From Companilactobacillus tucceti DSM 20183 (GTDB lineage: Bacteria; Bacillota; Bacilli; Lactobacillales; Lactobacillaceae): a stretch of DNA of 64,000 nucleotides. Under the pieces are notes generated by a model that had not been told where the DNA came from, did not search any database, and was given only the letters and a program-made list of their open reading frames with translations. The stretch lies in contig NZ_AZDG01000004.1 in assembly GCF_001434665.1 (NCBI RefSeq), positions 62,001 to 126,000 of the forward strand, in the 5' to 3' direction. Position numbers and translations under genes: made by a program. This document shows positions 31,909 through 55,474 of this stretch, piece by piece; position 1 is the first letter of the stretch, and each line of letters opens with the position of its first letter.

Positions 31909-31940
31909 AAAAAAAGCCGACTCATATGAGTCGGCTTTTA
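31909..31940 (-). terminator. Terminator of cspA
   Basis: AAAAAAGCCGACTCAT / ATGAGTCGGCTTTTA, a 12-bp stem with A- and T-runs, 19 bases after the cspA stop. Confidence 0.93.
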
Positions 31941-31958
31941 AAACATTATTATAAGTTA

Positions 31959-32159
31959 TTATGCCTTAACAACGTTTGATGCTTGTGGTCCGCGATCGCT
32001 ATCTTCGATATCGAATGTAACGGCTTGACCTTCTTCCAAAGTCTTGTAACCGTCGCCTTGGATTGCTGAGAAATGTACGAATACATCACTACCATCCTCG
32101 CGTGTAATAAAACCATAACCTTTTTCGGCGTTAAACCATTTAACTGTTCCGTGTTCCAT
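31959..32159 (-). CDS. cspA: Cold-shock protein
   Basis: 66 residues of a single cold-shock OB fold. RNP1 (KGYGFITRE) and RNP2 (VFVHFSAI) are intact. It melts RNA structure and acts as an RNA chaperone. A GGAGGA ribosome site lies 10 bases upstream. The predicted start of transcription gives a leader of about 110 bases, in keeping with temperature-dependent control of csp mRNAs. Confidence 0.97.
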
Positions 32160-32276
32160 CAGACTGTTCCTCCTGATAATTCATATATTTGTGCATTATT
32201 TCGTGGTACATCATGGAAGAAAGTCTTCAGAAACCAAAACCATTCGAACCATTAACCATTCAAAAATACAACATTT

Positions 32277-32305
32277 ATTCTAACATGGATTTCGGCGCTT
32301 TACAA
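32277..32305 (-). promoter_or_regulatory. cspA promoter with long leader
   Basis: On the minus strand a -35 TTGTAA (32300-32305) and a -10 TAGAAT (32277-32282) are separated by exactly 17 bp. The -35 lies within an inverted repeat GCGCTGTAA / TTGTAAAGCGC. Transcription from here leaves roughly 110 bases before the cspA ATG. Confidence 0.6.
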
Positions 32306-47779: not shown

Positions 47780-49171
47780 CTAATCTTCAACATCGATCGT
47801 ATATGGATCTTCATTAGTCCTCATTAACAAACGAGCGTTGAACATCGCATATGCCAAAATAGAAACAAAATAGATACTTACAGATGGAGCTTCAATAACA
47901 TGTCCTGTTAATAGTGCCATACCAAAACCTAAAGCTACACTGGCTACTAACATTGACCATTTAAATGACCACATATATTTGAATTTTCTAAAGAATGTAC
48001 CAATTAGATAAATCAAACTATATATCAATGGTGCCAAATAAACGATAGCCCCTAAATAACCGAATTGGAACAAGATATCAATATAGTCCATTTCAACTAA
48101 TTTAGCGTCTTTAACCTTCTTGAAGTTAGTTGCATATCCCATACCAAACATCTTTTGAGCAATATTGGCTTTAGAGAAATTGTGCGCCGCATTTTCAAAG
48201 TAAATTGTACGACCACTTAATAAGTAAGAAACGGTTTTGTTAGTCTCAACATATTTCTTTTGATCCTTATCCAATCCCTTTTTAGTCTTAGCTTGCTTCT
48301 TCTTATAGTGAATCATTTCAGTGTGCAACTCAGCAGTTCTTGAAACTGCCATAGCTGGATATGAAACGGCTATTCCACCAATAGTTAATGCCAAAAGTAC
48401 AATTATTCCAGTAATAAGTTTTTTATCACGAGATCTGAACCATTGAACTATTGCTACTAATAAAGCAAAGCCAGTACCGAATATGATTGATAAGAATGAG
48501 CCCTTAGTACCTATTAAAAGAACCGAATAGATGGCTAAAACAATTGAGATCCAATAATAAATTCTTGTACCCGTGTTCAATTTCTTCAGTGCGTACCAAA
48601 TCATGATAGGAAATGAAATTGAAACAATGGCACTTAATTCATTAGCGGCAAAGAACCAGCCACTTTCACCAAGTTTATAGTATGAATATGAACTGAAACT
48701 TGTATTTGTAAAGTGTGCAATAAGCATGATCAAACTGACGATATTTATTGCATAAAAAATAACTTTTGGAAAGAAACGATTTATAATTCTATCTTCTGCT
48801 AACTCTTCAAACGCATATAGATATGCAAGTAACATTATTGGATAGTAAAAACTCTTGGCTAGAGTAGTTATTTCAAGTGATGGAACAAATAAAGTTTTTG
48901 ACTTGTAATTAATGACTAAACTTATTACTGCCATTAAGGCAAGCAATACAAAATAACCAATAATAAAGAAACCCTTTTTATTATTACGATTTAAAATTAA
49001 GTAGATCAATATATAGAATACTGTTAAAACCATGACGATCATTCTGATAAAAATACCAAAAGTCACATCCATGTGCATCCTAAGCATTCCCCCAGTAAGC
49101 GCATCTAGTAGAGGTTGGAAAATAATATATAGAATCAAAAAGATACTATATTTCTTTATAAAGCTTTGCAT
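47780..49171 (-). CDS. O-antigen ligase/polymerase-like membrane protein
   Basis: 463 residues, about eleven helices with one long extracytoplasmic loop (about 285-350, rich in Lys: KKKQAKTKKGLDKDQKKY). The loop and the GTKGSFLSIIFG segment resemble Wzy/WaaL-type proteins. It may polymerise or attach a surface polysaccharide. Stand-alone gene between tagA and gntR. Confidence 0.75.
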   Translation of the reverse strand: MQSFIKKYSIFLILYIIFQPLLDALTGGMLRMHMDVTFGIFIRMIVMVLTVFYILIYLILNRNNKKGFFIIGYFVLLALMAVISLVINYKSKTLFVPSLEITTLAKSFYYPIMLLAYLYAFEELAEDRIINRFFPKVIFYAINIVSLIMLIAHFTNTSFSSYSYYKLGESGWFFAANELSAIVSISFPIMIWYALKKLNTGTRIYYWISIVLAIYSVLLIGTKGSFLSIIFGTGFALLVAIVQWFRSRDKKLITGIIVLLALTIGGIAVSYPAMAVSRTAELHTEMIHYKKKQAKTKKGLDKDQKKYVETNKTVSYLLSGRTIYFENAAHNFSKANIAQKMFGMGYATNFKKVKDAKLVEMDYIDILFQFGYLGAIVYLAPLIYSLIYLIGTFFRKFKYMWSFKWSMLVASVALGFGMALLTGHVIEAPSVSIYFVSILAYAMFNARLLMRTNEDPYTIDVED

Positions 49172-49249
49172 AATTAACTCCCAGCTGAATATTTAAAAAA
49201 ACGTTAGTTATATAGTAACCCAATTTCTTTGCTAAAAAAATAATTGGTA

Positions 49250-49951
49250 CTATCTTTCAAGATAAAATTCAAAACGATCTCCTGCATACTGTGAACGAAC
49301 ATATTCAAAAGGTGTTCCATCATCTAAGGTAGTAATTTGTCTTAGTCTCAAAATTGCTGAACCACGTTTTACATTCAATAAAGTTGCAATTTTTTCTGAA
49401 GCAAGCATTGCAGATACAGTTTGACTAGCACTACCTAGTTTCAATCCAGCCTTATCTTCCAATGCCTTATACAATGATGAAGTTATATCATTTTTATCTA
49501 AATTATCAACAATCTTGATTGGAATGGTTGTTACTTCAAAACAAATCGGTTGTTTATCAGCATAACGGATACGTTCCATTCTCAAAATCTGTTCTCCATC
49601 AGATAATTTTAACTTTTCAATTTCACTCATTGAAGGATCTGCAGTGTGGTAGGAAACCGTCTTACTTGATGGTTTTTTGCCTTGTCCTTCAGTAATTTCT
49701 GTAAAACTAGTAGTTCCAGACATTTTCTCTTGAACTTTACTGCTGGCAACATACGTACCAGAACCCACTTGTCGTTGAAGTATTCCCTCATCTACAAGCG
49801 TTTGAATAGCCTGACGTAAAGTCATACGGCTAACGTTAAAATCCTCAGCTAGCTGCCTTTCTGAAGGAATACGTTCACCCACAGTCCATTTGCCTAGTTC
49901 AATTTCTTTTCTAATTCGGTTATGTATTTGAATATAAACTGGTACCTTCAT
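49250..49951 (-). CDS. GntR/HutC-family regulator, NagR/DasR-like
   Basis: 233 residues: an N-terminal GntR winged helix (residues 1-68, VSRMTLRQAIQTLVDEGIL) and a C-terminal UTRA ligand domain with the S-G-T-T-S-F-T-E linker and E-Y-V-R-S-Q-Y-A-G-D-R-F-E-F end. NagR/YvoA and DasR of this group sense GlcN-6-P or GlcNAc-6-P. A DasR/NagR-like half-perfect site lies at its own promoter, which supports the assignment. No nagA or nagB gene is next to it. Confidence 0.85.
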   Translation of the reverse strand: MKVPVYIQIHNRIRKEIELGKWTVGERIPSERQLAEDFNVSRMTLRQAIQTLVDEGILQRQVGSGTYVASSKVQEKMSGTTSFTEITEGQGKKPSSKTVSYHTADPSMSEIEKLKLSDGEQILRMERIRYADKQPICFEVTTIPIKIVDNLDKNDITSSLYKALEDKAGLKLGSASQTVSAMLASEKIATLLNVKRGSAILRLRQITTLDDGTPFEYVRSQYAGDRFEFYLER

Positions 49952-49999
49952 GGTAAGCTCCCCTTCTCACGATGAGATTTTAATTCATTATACAGTAAA

Positions 50000-50013
50000 A
50001 TTGGTCTAGATTA
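50000..50013 (-). promoter_or_regulatory. dre-like operator at the gntR promoter
   Basis: ATTGGTCTAGATTA resembles the DasR/NagR site (TGGTCTAGACCA core): the left half and centre are exact, the right half is degenerate. A TATAAT -10 of the gntR gene lies about 12 bases further on (49988-49993), so the site overlaps the -35 region. Confidence 0.5.
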
Positions 50014-50044
50014 AAAAAAGGACCGATATAATCGGTCCTTTTTA
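50013..50044 (-). terminator. Terminator of the tRNA-Tyr/tRNA-Gln unit
   Basis: AAAAAAAGGACCGAT / ATCGGTCCTTTTT, 10-bp stem with T-run on the minus strand, 5 bases past tRNA-Gln. Confidence 0.92.
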
Positions 50045-50048
50045 GGTA

Positions 50049-50120
50049 TTGGGTTAGCTGGATTCGAACCAGCGCATGATGGAGTCAAAGTCCATTGCCT
50101 TACCGCTTGGCTATAACCCA
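50049..50120 (-). tRNA. tRNA-Gln (anticodon TTG)
   Basis: 72 bases, cloverleaf with acceptor TGGGTTA / TAACCCA, anticodon loop CTTTGAC, T arm GGTTCGAATCC. CCA is not encoded. Confidence 0.95.
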
Positions 50121-50125
50121 ATAAA

Positions 50126-50208
50126 TGGAGGGGAGTGGATTCGAACCACCGAACCCGAAGGAGCGGATTTACAGTCCGCCGCGTTTAGCCAGACTTCGCT
50201 ACCCCTCC
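50126..50208 (-). tRNA. tRNA-Tyr (anticodon GTA)
   Basis: 83 bases, class II. Acceptor GGAGGGG / CCCCTCC, anticodon loop CTGTAAA, variable arm CTCCTTCGGG, T arm GGTTCGAATCC. It is separated from tRNA-Gln by only 5 bases, so the two are processed from one transcript. Confidence 0.95.
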
Positions 50209-50229
50209 GTGTCATTACTCGACTTAATA

Positions 50230-50258
50230 ATATTACCTAAAATTAGTTTGTTTTTCAA
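50230..50258 (-). promoter_or_regulatory. Promoter of the tRNA-Tyr/Gln unit
   Basis: On the minus strand TTGAAA (50253-50258), 17 bp, TAATAT (50230-50235), about 20 bases ahead of tRNA-Tyr. Confidence 0.75.
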
Positions 50259-50306
50259 GTGGTGAAATGACTTTTTTAATAGAAATACTGGTTGGGGTGG
50301 GGGCGC

Positions 50307-50472
50307 ATTAAATTTTGAGTAATTTCACCTGTTGTGCGACCGACTTCAGCCAAGGTCTGAAGTCTCAATTTGAAGCTTTGCCATGCAAATCTTCAAATCG
50401 TCGGTGGAGTAAGAACGGTAACCCGCCGTTCAACTCCACTTTCACAACTGGTTACATTACTCAAAATTTAAA
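50307..50472 (+). repeat. Cloverleaf-like repeat, copy I
   Basis: A roughly 30-bp outer stem (50307-50336 with 50443-50472, about 26 pairs) closes three hairpins: 50343-50363 (ACTTCAG / CTGAAGT, loop CCAAGGT), 50368-50398 (ATTTGAAG / CTTCAAAT around TTTGCCATGCAAA) and 50404-50439 (GTGGAGT / ACTCCAC with inner ACGG / CCGT). No ORF of note. The loops are shared with the inverted copy II. Confidence 0.85.
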
Positions 50473-50517
50473 GCTTATTTATTTTTAGAATGCATAGACA
50501 TTTCACAAACAACCCTA

Positions 50518-50688
50518 GCCAGCGGGTGCGAGGAAATCGATCAGCAGTGAAAATTCCGTTGGAACGTCACAGACGTACCTACGGAATGGACGAATTTCAA
50601 GATTTGCGAAGCAAAGCTCGAAATCGAGGACTCAGACCTCGGCTGAGTCCGGTCCCACTGCAGATCGATTCTCCTCGCACCCACTGGC
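50518..50688 (-). repeat. Cloverleaf-like repeat, copy II (inverted)
   Basis: The outer arms 50518-50550 and 50655-50688 pair at about 28 of 32 positions, with a sequence unrelated to copy I. Read on the minus strand, the three hairpins come in the same order as in copy I: GACTCAG-CCGAGGT-CTGAGTC, then CGAGCTTTGCTTCGCAAATC, then ATTCCGT / ACGGAAT with inner ACGT / ACGT. It lies downstream of dtpT in the dtpT sense. Confidence 0.85.
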
Positions 50689-50756
50689 GGCAGAAAGAAA
50701 CAAAAAAAGCCATCCCTACCATATAAGTAGAAACGACTTCAAAATAATCAATAATT

Positions 50757-52232
50757 TTAGTTAACACCTTGCATCAATGGTTTGATCTTAGGTACTAATA
50801 AGGCCAAGATAATTCCGGCTACTAATGTTACAGCACCTGTGATACCAAAGAACATGATTTCGTTAGCAGGGTTTCCTGGTTCGAACAACTTAACTAATTG
50901 AGCATTAGCAGCTTGTCCAGCTGAATCTGCTAAGAACCACATACCCATCATTTGAGATGCGAATGCCTTTGGAGCTAGTTTTGTTGTAGCTGACAAACCA
51001 ACTGGAGAAATCAACATTTCACCAATTTCAATGATTCCCCAACTCAATACTAACCAAAGTGGGCTAACTTTTCCGTTTGAACTCAATCCCATCAAAGGAA
51101 TGATAATAACGAAGTATGAAACAGCTGTAAATACAAGTCCGATCCAGAACTTAGATGGTGAAGAAGGTTGTCTCTTACCTAATTTCAACCATAACCAAGC
51201 AAAGATTGGTGAGTAGATAATGATAAAGAATGGATTAAGCATCTGGAATTGTGGAGCAGATAGATTTAATCCGGCAAAGTTCAATTGTGTTTGTTCAGCA
51301 GCAAATAGTGCTAAAACAACTGAACCTTGTTCCTCAATTGCCCAGAAAATAGCTGCGGCAATGAATAATGGGATATAAGCAATAACACGTGATCTTTCAA
51401 CCTTAGTAACCTTTTTACTTGTAAGCATTACTACAAAATAACCAACTGGTAATAAAATACCTAAGGCACTAAGAATGTTGATAAAGTTATCAACTGTTAA
51501 TGAATTTGTAAATGCCATAACGATAACTACGATAACTATAGCAATAATTACATAAATAGCTCTTCTGATAAATTTAGTACGTTCAGCACCGTTAAGTGGA
51601 TCTGGAGCTTGGAAACTTTCTTTAGGTAGATATTTACGGCCGTCAAACCAGTAAACAATAAGTCCAAAGAACATACCAATAGCAGCCAATGAGAAACCAG
51701 CATGGAAACTGAAGTGATGCCACATTGAGTTAACTGCTTGTGGAGCAATCAATGAACCAAGGTTAATACCCATAACGAAGATACTGAAACCAGCATCACG
51801 ACGAGTATCTTGTTCGGTATATAGTCCACCAACCATTTCGGATACGTTTGGCTTCAATAAACCAGTACCAATGGTAATAAGACCAATAGATACGAATAAT
51901 CCTGTTTGACCAAGAGGTAGTGATAAAGCGATATGACCAAACATGATCAATACACCACCCCAGAATACGGTTCTTCTAGGTCCCATAAATCTATCACTAA
52001 TAATACCGCCGACAACACTGGACATATAAACTAATGATCCATAAATCGACATAACAGATGCGGCTGTAACTTGGTTCATACCAAGTCCACCCTTATCTAT
52101 TGCATAGTACATATAGAACAGCAAGATGGCACGCATACCGTAGTAACTGAATCTCTCCCAAAATTCAGTAAGGAATAGCGTTCTCAAGCCAAGAGGTTGT
52201 CCGAAGAAACCTCGATTCTTCTTTTCTTCCAT
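50757..52232 (-). CDS. dtpT: Di-/tripeptide:H+ symporter (POT family)
   Basis: 491 residues, about fourteen helices. The POT E-x-x-E-R motif is EFWERFSYYGMR near the N-terminus, and the second family signature (FSIFVMGINLGSLIAPQ) follows. It imports di- and tripeptides with protons, key to nitrogen nutrition of lactic acid bacteria. It is transcribed alone from a near-consensus promoter. AAGGAG precedes the ATG. Confidence 0.95.
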   Translation of the reverse strand: MEEKKNRGFFGQPLGLRTLFLTEFWERFSYYGMRAILLFYMYYAIDKGGLGMNQVTAASVMSIYGSLVYMSSVVGGIISDRFMGPRRTVFWGGVLIMFGHIALSLPLGQTGLFVSIGLITIGTGLLKPNVSEMVGGLYTEQDTRRDAGFSIFVMGINLGSLIAPQAVNSMWHHFSFHAGFSLAAIGMFFGLIVYWFDGRKYLPKESFQAPDPLNGAERTKFIRRAIYVIIAIVIVVIVMAFTNSLTVDNFINILSALGILLPVGYFVVMLTSKKVTKVERSRVIAYIPLFIAAAIFWAIEEQGSVVLALFAAEQTQLNFAGLNLSAPQFQMLNPFFIIIYSPIFAWLWLKLGKRQPSSPSKFWIGLVFTAVSYFVIIIPLMGLSSNGKVSPLWLVLSWGIIEIGEMLISPVGLSATTKLAPKAFASQMMGMWFLADSAGQAANAQLVKLFEPGNPANEIMFFGITGAVTLVAGIILALLVPKIKPLMQGVN

Positions 52233-52384: not shown

Positions 52385-53887
52385 TTATTTTCTATGTTTA
52401 AATGCCATCGTAGCATTAACAGCTTCTTTCCAGCCAGCATACAAATTATCACGAACTTCATTTTCCATTTTTGGCTCGTAAACATCCCCAGACTGATAAT
52501 TCTTCTTGATATCGTCAATATCTTTCCAATATCCAGAACCCAGTCCAGATAAAAATGCAGCTCCTAATGAAGTTGTTTCTAGTTCTTCAGCCCTTTGTAA
52601 TGGAATGTCTAAAATATCTGCTTGAAATTGCATTAGATATTCATTTGCAGTAGCTGCTCCATCAACTTTTAAAATATCGATTGGGGTTTTAGAATCTGAA
52701 CTCATCGTATCTATAATATCTTTTGTCTGATAGGCAATGGCTTGGAGGGTAGCTTTAATAAAGTCATCTTTATTAGTCCCACGTGTTAATCCAAAGACTG
52801 TACCATGTGCTTTGTCATCCCAGTATGGAGCACCTAAACCTGAAAAAGCAGGCACTACATATACTTCGTCACGACTTGTTGATCTCATGGCAGCTTGTTG
52901 TGTATCTGGCGTTCGTTTAATGATTCTTAAATCATCACGTAGCCATTGTAATGCGGCTCCAGCAACAAACACACTACCTTCAAGTGCATAATTTATTTTA
53001 CCATTTATACCATAAGCAATGGTCGTCAGCAAGTTATTATCAGACAGCGCAGGAACTTCACCCGTGTTCATCACAACGAAGGCTCCAGTTCCATAAGTAT
53101 TTTTAACCATACCTTTATCAAATGCCATTTGTCCGATCAATGAAGCTTGTTGTGATCCAGTCATACCAGTAATTGGAATCTCTGAACCATAAAAATGGTA
53201 ACTCTTAGTGGTACCAAATAATTCAGAGTTAGATCTGACTTCAGGCAACATACTTTTAGGGATATTAAACAACTTTAATAAATCATCATCCCAAGTAAGG
53301 TCATTGATGTTATATAACATTGTTCGACTTGCATTTGCATAGTCAGTTAAAAAGCTCTCACCATCAGTTAATTGCCACAACAACCATGTATTGATAGTCC
53401 CAAATAATAACTCACCTTTTTCGGCACGTTCTTGAGCACCTTCAACATGGTCCAAAATCCAGCGAACTTTAGTAGCTGAAAAATATGGACTAACGATCAA
53501 GCCTGTCTTTTGATGAATTTCATCTTTGTAACCTTCATCAATGATCTTGTTGGCCAAACTGACAGTTTGTCTTGATTGCCAAACAACAGCATTATGAATT
53601 GGCAAGCCAGTATTCTTATCCCAAACAACAGTAGTCTCACGCTGACTAGCGATACCGATGGACTTAATTTGTTTTGGTTTAATTCCAGATTCGATCAAAG
53701 CTGTAGCTATAGTAGTTTGGACAGCATTCCAAATTTCAGAAGCATCATGTTCTACCCAACCTGGATTAGGCAAAATCTGACGAATCGGATGACGTGCTGC
53801 AGCAACTTTTCTACCGTTATGATCAAAAATCATGGCTCTGGCCGTAGTTGTCCCCTCATCGATTGCTAAAATGTACTCTTCGTCCAT
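52385..53887 (-). CDS. Glycerol kinase paralogue with altered catalytic residues
   Basis: 500 residues, FGGY family, close to the adjacent GlpK along its whole length. GGAGGG marks the inner ATG. The N-terminal [10 protein letters not shown] phosphate loop, QRET substrate residues and the Enterococcus-type regulatory His (YHFYG, H231) are kept. However, the catalytic Asp (D245 of E. coli GlpK, in G-D-Q-Q) is Ser 245 (G-S-Q-Q), and the ATP-site V-D-G-G-A is V-D-G-A-A. The frame is intact, so it is probably a non-catalytic or re-purposed paralogue. It lies 21 bases after the intact copy, in the same operon. Confidence 0.9.
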
Positions 53888-53908
53888 CTTGATTCCCTCC
53901 AAATATAG

Positions 53909-55474
<1,566 letters not shown>

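Follow-up and report, generated by a model that had tools for sequence, protein, structure and literature searches.

A dispersed family of cloverleaf-folding intergenic repeats in Lactobacillaceae

The two cloverleaves beside dtpT

Within the window, i.e. the whole 64,000-nucleotide stretch of Companilactobacillus tucceti DSM 20183 DNA analysed here, two cloverleaf-like elements are arranged tail to tail, with the tRNA-Tyr/tRNA-Gln genes on one side and a transporter gene on the other, copy I on the plus strand and copy II on the minus strand. The pair spans a few bases more than 50307–50688, both sides counted. Its surroundings agree with a sequence-only reading of this DNA made beforehand, which had placed it between a tRNA unit and dtpT: tRNA-Gln and tRNA-Tyr are its neighbours on one side and, on the other, a POT/PTR2 family transporter is consistent with dtpT. 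An intrinsic-terminator-like hairpin with a T tail (50706–50740, minus strand) follows dtpT; it lies outside the repeat, immediately ahead of the 5′ terminus of copy II. The same reading had seen no coding ORF in the pair, and indeed the 78-aa ORF that crosses copy II (50490–50726) has no Pfam match. Further along the window, two adjacent minus-strand genes of the FGGY kinase family (52385–53902 and 53909–55414), which we take to be glycerol-kinase-like, are 67% identical over 499 aa and are probably a tandem duplication.

Copy I as a whole occupies 50305–50474 (plus strand), as delimited by its fold, its outer arms and the match of its core (50326–50452, 126.7 bits) to R1, a covariance model made from 20 copies of six species whose MAFFT alignment was produced before the structure was imposed. 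Its outer stem P1 consists of a 5′ arm at 50305–50336 and a 3′ arm at 50443–50474 (inverted repeat I2, 32 nt, 88% complementary). Inside this stem, the fold gives a helix P2, in which CGAC (50337–50340) pairs with GTCG (50400–50403), enclosing both the hairpin P3, GACTTCAG-CCAAGGT-CTGAAGTC (50342–50364), and the hairpin P4 with its conserved TTTGC/GCAAA tip (50368–50398, from fold and alignment); the hairpin P5, GTGGAGT.../...ACTCCAC, comes next (50404–50439, likewise from fold and alignment). After a short spacer that separates the two tails in the sequence (50475–50514), copy II follows, inverted relative to copy I (50515–50692, minus strand, from its fold and R1), with its core at 50540–50666 (123.7 bits) and the outermost part of its outer stem formed by a 3′ arm at 50518–50534 and a 5′ arm at 50672–50688 (inverted repeat I3, 17 nt, 94%). 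The inverted arms 50329–50398 and 50594–50663 are 76% complementary across 70 nt.

In the sense direction, the common plan is an outer stem P1 of 20–30 bp, a short helix P2 around P3 and P4, and then P5, the P3 loop position lying between AGCC and GTCT. Both copies fold into this shape, at −75.3 kcal/mol for copy I (z −10.1) and −107.8 kcal/mol for copy II (z −12.1), each value being equalled by 0 of 200 shuffles; the initial description of two cloverleaf-like elements whose stems close three hairpins thus holds. The outer stems are separate, each copy having its own, and the loops CCAAGGT, CCGAGGT and CTTTGC...GCAAATCTT are present as described. The four-way junction that had been proposed needs amending: the three hairpins are there, but the junction is not a plain one, because a 4-bp helix (CGAC/GTCG in copy I, GGAC/GTCC in copy II) encloses two of them.

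Family size, shared sites and pairing

R1 gave 38 matches in the window's own genome (G000) at E ≤ 0.1, i.e. 31 sense copies and 7 weaker antisense shadows, 31 being a minimum, as scoring covered 150 of 596 candidates. Across the genus, 34 of 36 genomes contain R1 matches (E ≤ 0.01; at most 97 candidates were scored per genome, a number reached in six of the 34). The covariance-model search over the Lactobacillaceae that had been suggested as a check, run with tighter filters and limited to 13 scored candidates per genome, found matches in 61 of 251 genomes and 12 of 40 genera (E ≤ 1e-4). In G034, 20 spaced regions totalling 395 kb held 47 copies, with 16 of the 20 regions occupied, and 280 kb of regions selected for holding matches held 83 copies. 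By arithmetic, the sampled regions suggest about 370 copies per genome, and about 370 × about 180 bp would represent roughly 2.5% of its 2.71 Mb. The cloverleaves are therefore members of a dispersed repeat family and not a single RNA gene. The sequence-only reading, which would have been undermined by an absence of further copies with compensatory stems, overlooked how many such copies there are, dispersed and often set in tail-to-tail pairs.

Several species gave weak R1 matches only (32–47 bits), which look like diverged subfamilies that share the plan with other sequences. At loci L203–L207, L209, L212 and L215–L217 of the genus, a diverged subfamily keeps the long outer stem, P4 and P5, P3 being apparently missing or replaced (by eye). 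A motif pattern scan of genome contigs returned at least 117 stretches, 11 from Companilactobacillus and 106 from others; when R1 was run on 99 of these 106, 13 matched at E ≤ 0.1 (best 27.5 bits, E 0.0003), none of which was counted as a member because the stretches had been chosen for a motif shared with the model. Plasmid records searched with four elements and phage records searched with one gave no match, and viral contigs gave 0 matches to a longer motif and 20 stretches matching a short one.

None of 4227 Rfam families matched the elements at the gathering cut-off over the window, nor did any at E ≤ 1 over 49000–52000, and at seven related loci the only Rfam matches were one tRNA and sub-threshold ones lying outside the repeats; a match to a known family was the other result that had been expected to overturn the idea of an undescribed element. 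Elsewhere in the window (31909–32290, minus strand), Rfam matches a cspA thermoregulator with 87 bits (cut-off 78). Among the results listed by literature searches restricted to open-licence papers, none described such a repeat in lactobacilli; by term search, the text of PMC2267715 names Lactobacillus once, in the L. johnsonii row of a table. The family is apparently undescribed. What had been called an undescribed structured RNA or DNA element hence keeps the first adjective, but the emphasis on a structured RNA is not supported, as the stems show no G-U excess.

Each unit consists of one cloverleaf, about 180 bp long, in which a 20–30 bp outer stem closes three hairpins. Indeed, among in-genome matches longer than 150 bp, the 24 best distinct ones (the 25 most alike were taken, one being a duplicate seen from its partner) start at 22–31 nt before the core in 22 cases and never more than 37 nt before it, and end within 31 nt past the core in 13 cases, at +34 to +50 in 10 and at +76 in one. 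These match ends define one cloverleaf, partly with a short AT-rich tail, and by inspection the unit ends near TGCCGCCTCCGG...CTCCGGCTAA. As these most alike copies are 89–95% identical over about one cloverleaf, the unit disperses.

Many sites are nevertheless held in common between species. Of 26 listed comparisons between matched sites, some of them reciprocal, 18 have R1 copies in both species and in 8 the other species lacks an R1 match, where R1 may overlook diverged copies. A G011 pair in a 587 bp gap is missing from G034 (230 bp gap, flanks 87–89% identical); one G034 pair is missing from G016 and one G016 pair from G034, with flanks less alike. Site-matched copies compared whole (n = 13) are 61–92% identical. 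In five comparisons, the site-matched copy stood above the other genome's average copy four times, but ranked first only between G000 and G016. The dtpT site carries the pair in both of these genomes, copy II being 87% alike; of the 30 species loci inspected there, 13 have one R1 match or more. By eye, the dtpT site of G017 (L279) holds an apparent deletion remnant, the 5′ part of copy I being joined to the 5′ part of copy II. Target duplication is not definable at the compared sites, the species being too diverged.

Shared sites also suit a host function that is kept, e.g. that of a REP/BIME-like chromosome-organising site, where folded or cruciform DNA dispersed long ago would bind a host protein such as a topoisomerase. 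The mostly intergenic location, the opposite-orientation pairs and the hundreds of copies in G034 agree with such a site, and REP palindromes are said in PMC2817692 to retain their palindromy via complementary mutations. However, no RAYT-type partner tracks the family, there are sites that differ between species, and single genomes contain very similar copies, so that we regard this explanation as improbable.

Arrangement was analysed on 216 R1 matches from seven genomes, or 211 once five antisense overlaps had been removed; some of the 211 are at sites common to G034 and G024 and hence not independent, and densities in this sample are inflated because its regions were chosen for matches. Among neighbours less than 500 bp apart, 71 of 74 are plus then minus (+−), the others being one −+, one −− and one ++, and the eight close neighbours of the spaced G034 sample are all +−. 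Three consecutive cloverleaves (+ − −) at L255 8700–9553 of G017 are an exception to this pairing rule. The copies form 137 units (69 +− pairs, 65 singles and 3 others); a crude ORF call overlaps 23 of the 211 cores, the remaining cores being intergenic. Across 67 related pairs, the spacer has a median length of 139 bp and an A+T content of 76%. Looked at for an autonomous copy with a gene inside, four widely spaced +− neighbours in the sampled regions contain 3, 3, 0 and 2 ORFs, and a widely spaced pair of the window's own genome has no ORF of 50 aa wholly between its cores.

In each of the four genomes tested, the average identity between partners is lower than that between re-paired copies. 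With the outer stem included, partner identity against random re-pairing was 0.737 versus 0.774 in G000 (8 pairs; 30 of the 31 copies used, spacing ≤900 bp), 0.774 versus 0.787 in G034 (33 pairs), 0.763 versus 0.778 in G011 (13 pairs) and 0.738 versus 0.761 in G016 (25 pairs). Values as low arose in 0.2%, 2.4%, 4.9% and 0.2% of 2000 shuffles, respectively, and, for the core alone, in 11.5%, 0.9%, 6.6% and 0.1%. When G034 copies are sorted into four clusters, same-type pairs are as many as expected (14 versus 13.3), so that the unlike-partner rule is in this genome a matter of identity and not of type. Three matching G011 pairs have both cloverleaves in common; by eye, the alignment of their spacers is unconvincing, and movement of the pair as one block was accordingly not adopted.

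Between two genes, 124 of the 137 units could be placed. Since +− pairs are found in all three kinds of gap (36 codirectional, 20 convergent, 11 divergent), the idea that each copy is tied to the preceding gene end was rejected. The 5′ ends face the genes: in convergent-gap pairs, the medians from core to stop codon are 36 and 41 nt, and the median distances from core to start codon are 109–126 nt. Such positions recall a structured RNA of mRNA 3′ regions that would act in mRNA stability or in termination, be read in sense downstream of the preceding stop codon and disperse passively: with the 5′ end abutting the stop, the transcript would fold as a cloverleaf and protect or end the mRNA. Of 119 cores whose upstream gene shares their strand, 65 begin 23–45 nt past the stop of that gene, and a crude scan finds terminator-like hairpins beyond the element in 27 of the 67 pair spacers; strong covariation and great fold stability would fit as well. 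However, single copies in codirectional gaps are about equally plus and minus (16 versus 18), and one copy of each pair would be antisense to any transcript. Together with the behaviour of the two strands presented below, this makes a 3′-region RNA unlikely.

Covariation and strand signature of the stems

The compensatory change first noticed between the two copies is genuine. In the R1 alignment (20 copies), 93.4% of the cells pair and 27 of 47 pairs changed on both sides, with 133 double-change cells versus 39.3 in shuffled and at most 37 in slid controls. Changes on both sides affect 2 of 4 pairs in P2, 6 of 8 in P3, 5 of the 14 counted in P4 (where 8 are invariant) and 7 of 12 in P5, the weakest helix, with 81.3% of its cells paired and a tip that is missing in some copies. 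The 58 nearest in-genome pairs (80–99% identical) display 247 Watson–Crick doubles, 45 other doubles and 254 singles, versus 47 doubles and 743 singles expected under independence; 110 of the 247 Watson–Crick doubles are of transversion type, and double changes of that type do not go through G-U. Unpaired positions of the 58 pairs differ in 419 of 2676 cases (15.7%), versus 11.3% per paired site. Only particular loop positions are thus conserved, unpaired sites overall changing at least as much as paired ones. Among closer pairs (86% and up), runs of double changes comprise one pair in 65 cases, two in 13 and three in 4, and adjacent doubles are modestly clustered (21 versus 11.3 expected).

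Template switching is reported to create, mend and maintain hairpin stems (PMC8794818), and we read the stem covariation as maintenance at the DNA level, with template switching as a plausible helper. Taken alone, this process would leave a pure mutational relic, i.e. inert repeats spread by recombination whose stems owe their pairing to template-switch correction alone, the folded form not being recognised. Close copies often show coordinated stem changes, and the modest clustering of these would agree with such a relic. However, many loop positions do not vary among the 20 R1 copies, which come from six species, and diverged subfamilies and other genera retain the architecture; this implies that function is under selection and leaves the relic a very small share of our confidence.

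If one RNA strand were selected, G-U would be expected to be tolerated far better than A-C. Internal stems contain 222 G-T versus 217 A-C, whereas terminator hairpins at the same loci, found by a rule that gives G-T and A-C equal treatment, contain 97 versus 34 over 123 hairpins. This lack of a G-T excess in the stems is firm. Outside the portion that the model covers, the outer stem even contains 46 G-T versus 95 A-C, an excess of A-C that is not firm because the small spaced G034 sample gives 14 versus 14. Within G034, P5 alone shows a G-T excess (39 versus 12) and P4 leans the opposite way (1 versus 11), so that no strand is favoured throughout. In only 65 of 209 copies does the sense strand fold better than the reverse complement, and in the spaced G034 sample the latter has the better fold for 30 of the 47 copies; in a control of only 11 tRNAs, sense is better in 8. 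Without a G-U excess, and with a reverse complement that is usually lower in energy, one functional RNA strand is argued against, including that of the 3′-region RNA. Equal G-T and A-C could, for their part, come from RNA use of both strands. As G-T does not exceed A-C here, unlike in terminators, a mobile DNA repeat is favoured over a sense-strand RNA.

A proposed folded-DNA unit and a putative enzyme

We lean, with scarcely more than even confidence, towards a non-coding, dispersed intergenic repeat of Lactobacillaceae that is a mobile DNA unit recognised in its folded form by a protein acting in trans. A DNA strand of the element would fold when single-stranded or as a cruciform; the protein supplied in trans would read the conserved loop positions and the ends, and would then copy or insert the unit. 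Pairing would be held by selection on the DNA fold, with template switching at replication copying one arm from the other, and the sequence of the stems would drift because they need only pair. The stem changes of copy II between G000 and G016 (2 Watson–Crick doubles, 2 other doubles and 8 singles, in an alignment that ignores structure and visibly misplaces arms) do not support this mobile-DNA reading.

Two candidate mobilisers were rejected, as their distribution does not track the family. The Y1 transposase (Y1_Tnp, PF01797, E ≤ 1e-5) occurs in 18 of 36 genus genomes and is absent from the high-copy genomes G034, G024 and G013, and also from G000. Reverse transcriptase (RVT_1) occurs in 12 of 36, including the high-copy G011, G013 and G024, and is absent from G000 and from the high-copy G034 and G016, an absence that also gives no support to a group II intron or other retro-mobilised RNA. 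The G011 chromosome carries six reverse-transcriptase genes with identical scores, which suggests an element that recently multiplied; no link to the repeats was seen.

Several known systems resemble this family in part. REP/BIME/REPIN sequences with their RAYT (TnpA-REP) partner are high-copy intergenic palindromes with inverted pairs and complementary changes, and offer an analogy in the way they work. However, a REP is a hairpin of a few tens of nucleotides, whereas the cloverleaf is branched and of about 180 bp; by inspection it has no GTAG foot, its ends being TGCCGCCTCCGG/CTCCGGCTAA-like, and Y1 transposase is absent from several high-copy cloverleaf genomes. On the features tested, the cloverleaf family is not a member of REP/RAYT. 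The pneumococcal BOX, itself modular (A/B/C), RUP and SPRITE are likewise small interspersed structured repeats of Gram-positive chromosomes. These three are regarded as parasitic (PMC3049150). Set apart from them by description, the cloverleaf has one fixed fold and unlike tail-to-tail pairs, and is found in 12 of the 40 Lactobacillaceae genera sampled. MITEs are also short, non-coding and dispersed, but for the cloverleaf neither terminal inverted repeats of a known IS nor a target duplication is established. Integron attC sites and IS200/IS605 ends are folded single-stranded DNA read by structure, with stems that are little conserved; the cloverleaf is more branched, no cassettes were seen with it and Y1 does not track it. 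Fungal mitochondrial double-hairpin elements are mobile hairpins whose loops are conserved while their stems change; the cloverleaf differs from them by its fold, its bacterial chromosomal location and its paired arrangement. By analogy, the family can be filed among the known interspersed structured intergenic repeats of bacteria, as a new variant.

A bolder proposal, which we consider possible but doubtful, is that of a new class of bacterial mobile DNA, in which a putative enzyme would read the element solely as a branched single strand in its folded state, stems would be free to change and cloverleaves would disperse singly. Retention would then often be as unlike tail-to-tail pairs, because alike pairs would form long palindromes and get deleted, a fate of which the deletion remnant at the dtpT site of G017 seems to be an example.

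If the mobile-DNA reading is true, one undescribed family would account for a visible fraction of the chromosome in some lactic acid bacteria, this fraction being far lower in the window's own genome with its 31 copies found, and an enzyme handling branched folded DNA may exist. For annotation, the family is a warning that strong covariation by itself is no proof of a functional RNA. With many related copies per genome, compensatory stem change could be watched, and the roles of selection and template switching in stem evolution would be directly testable outside RNA genes.
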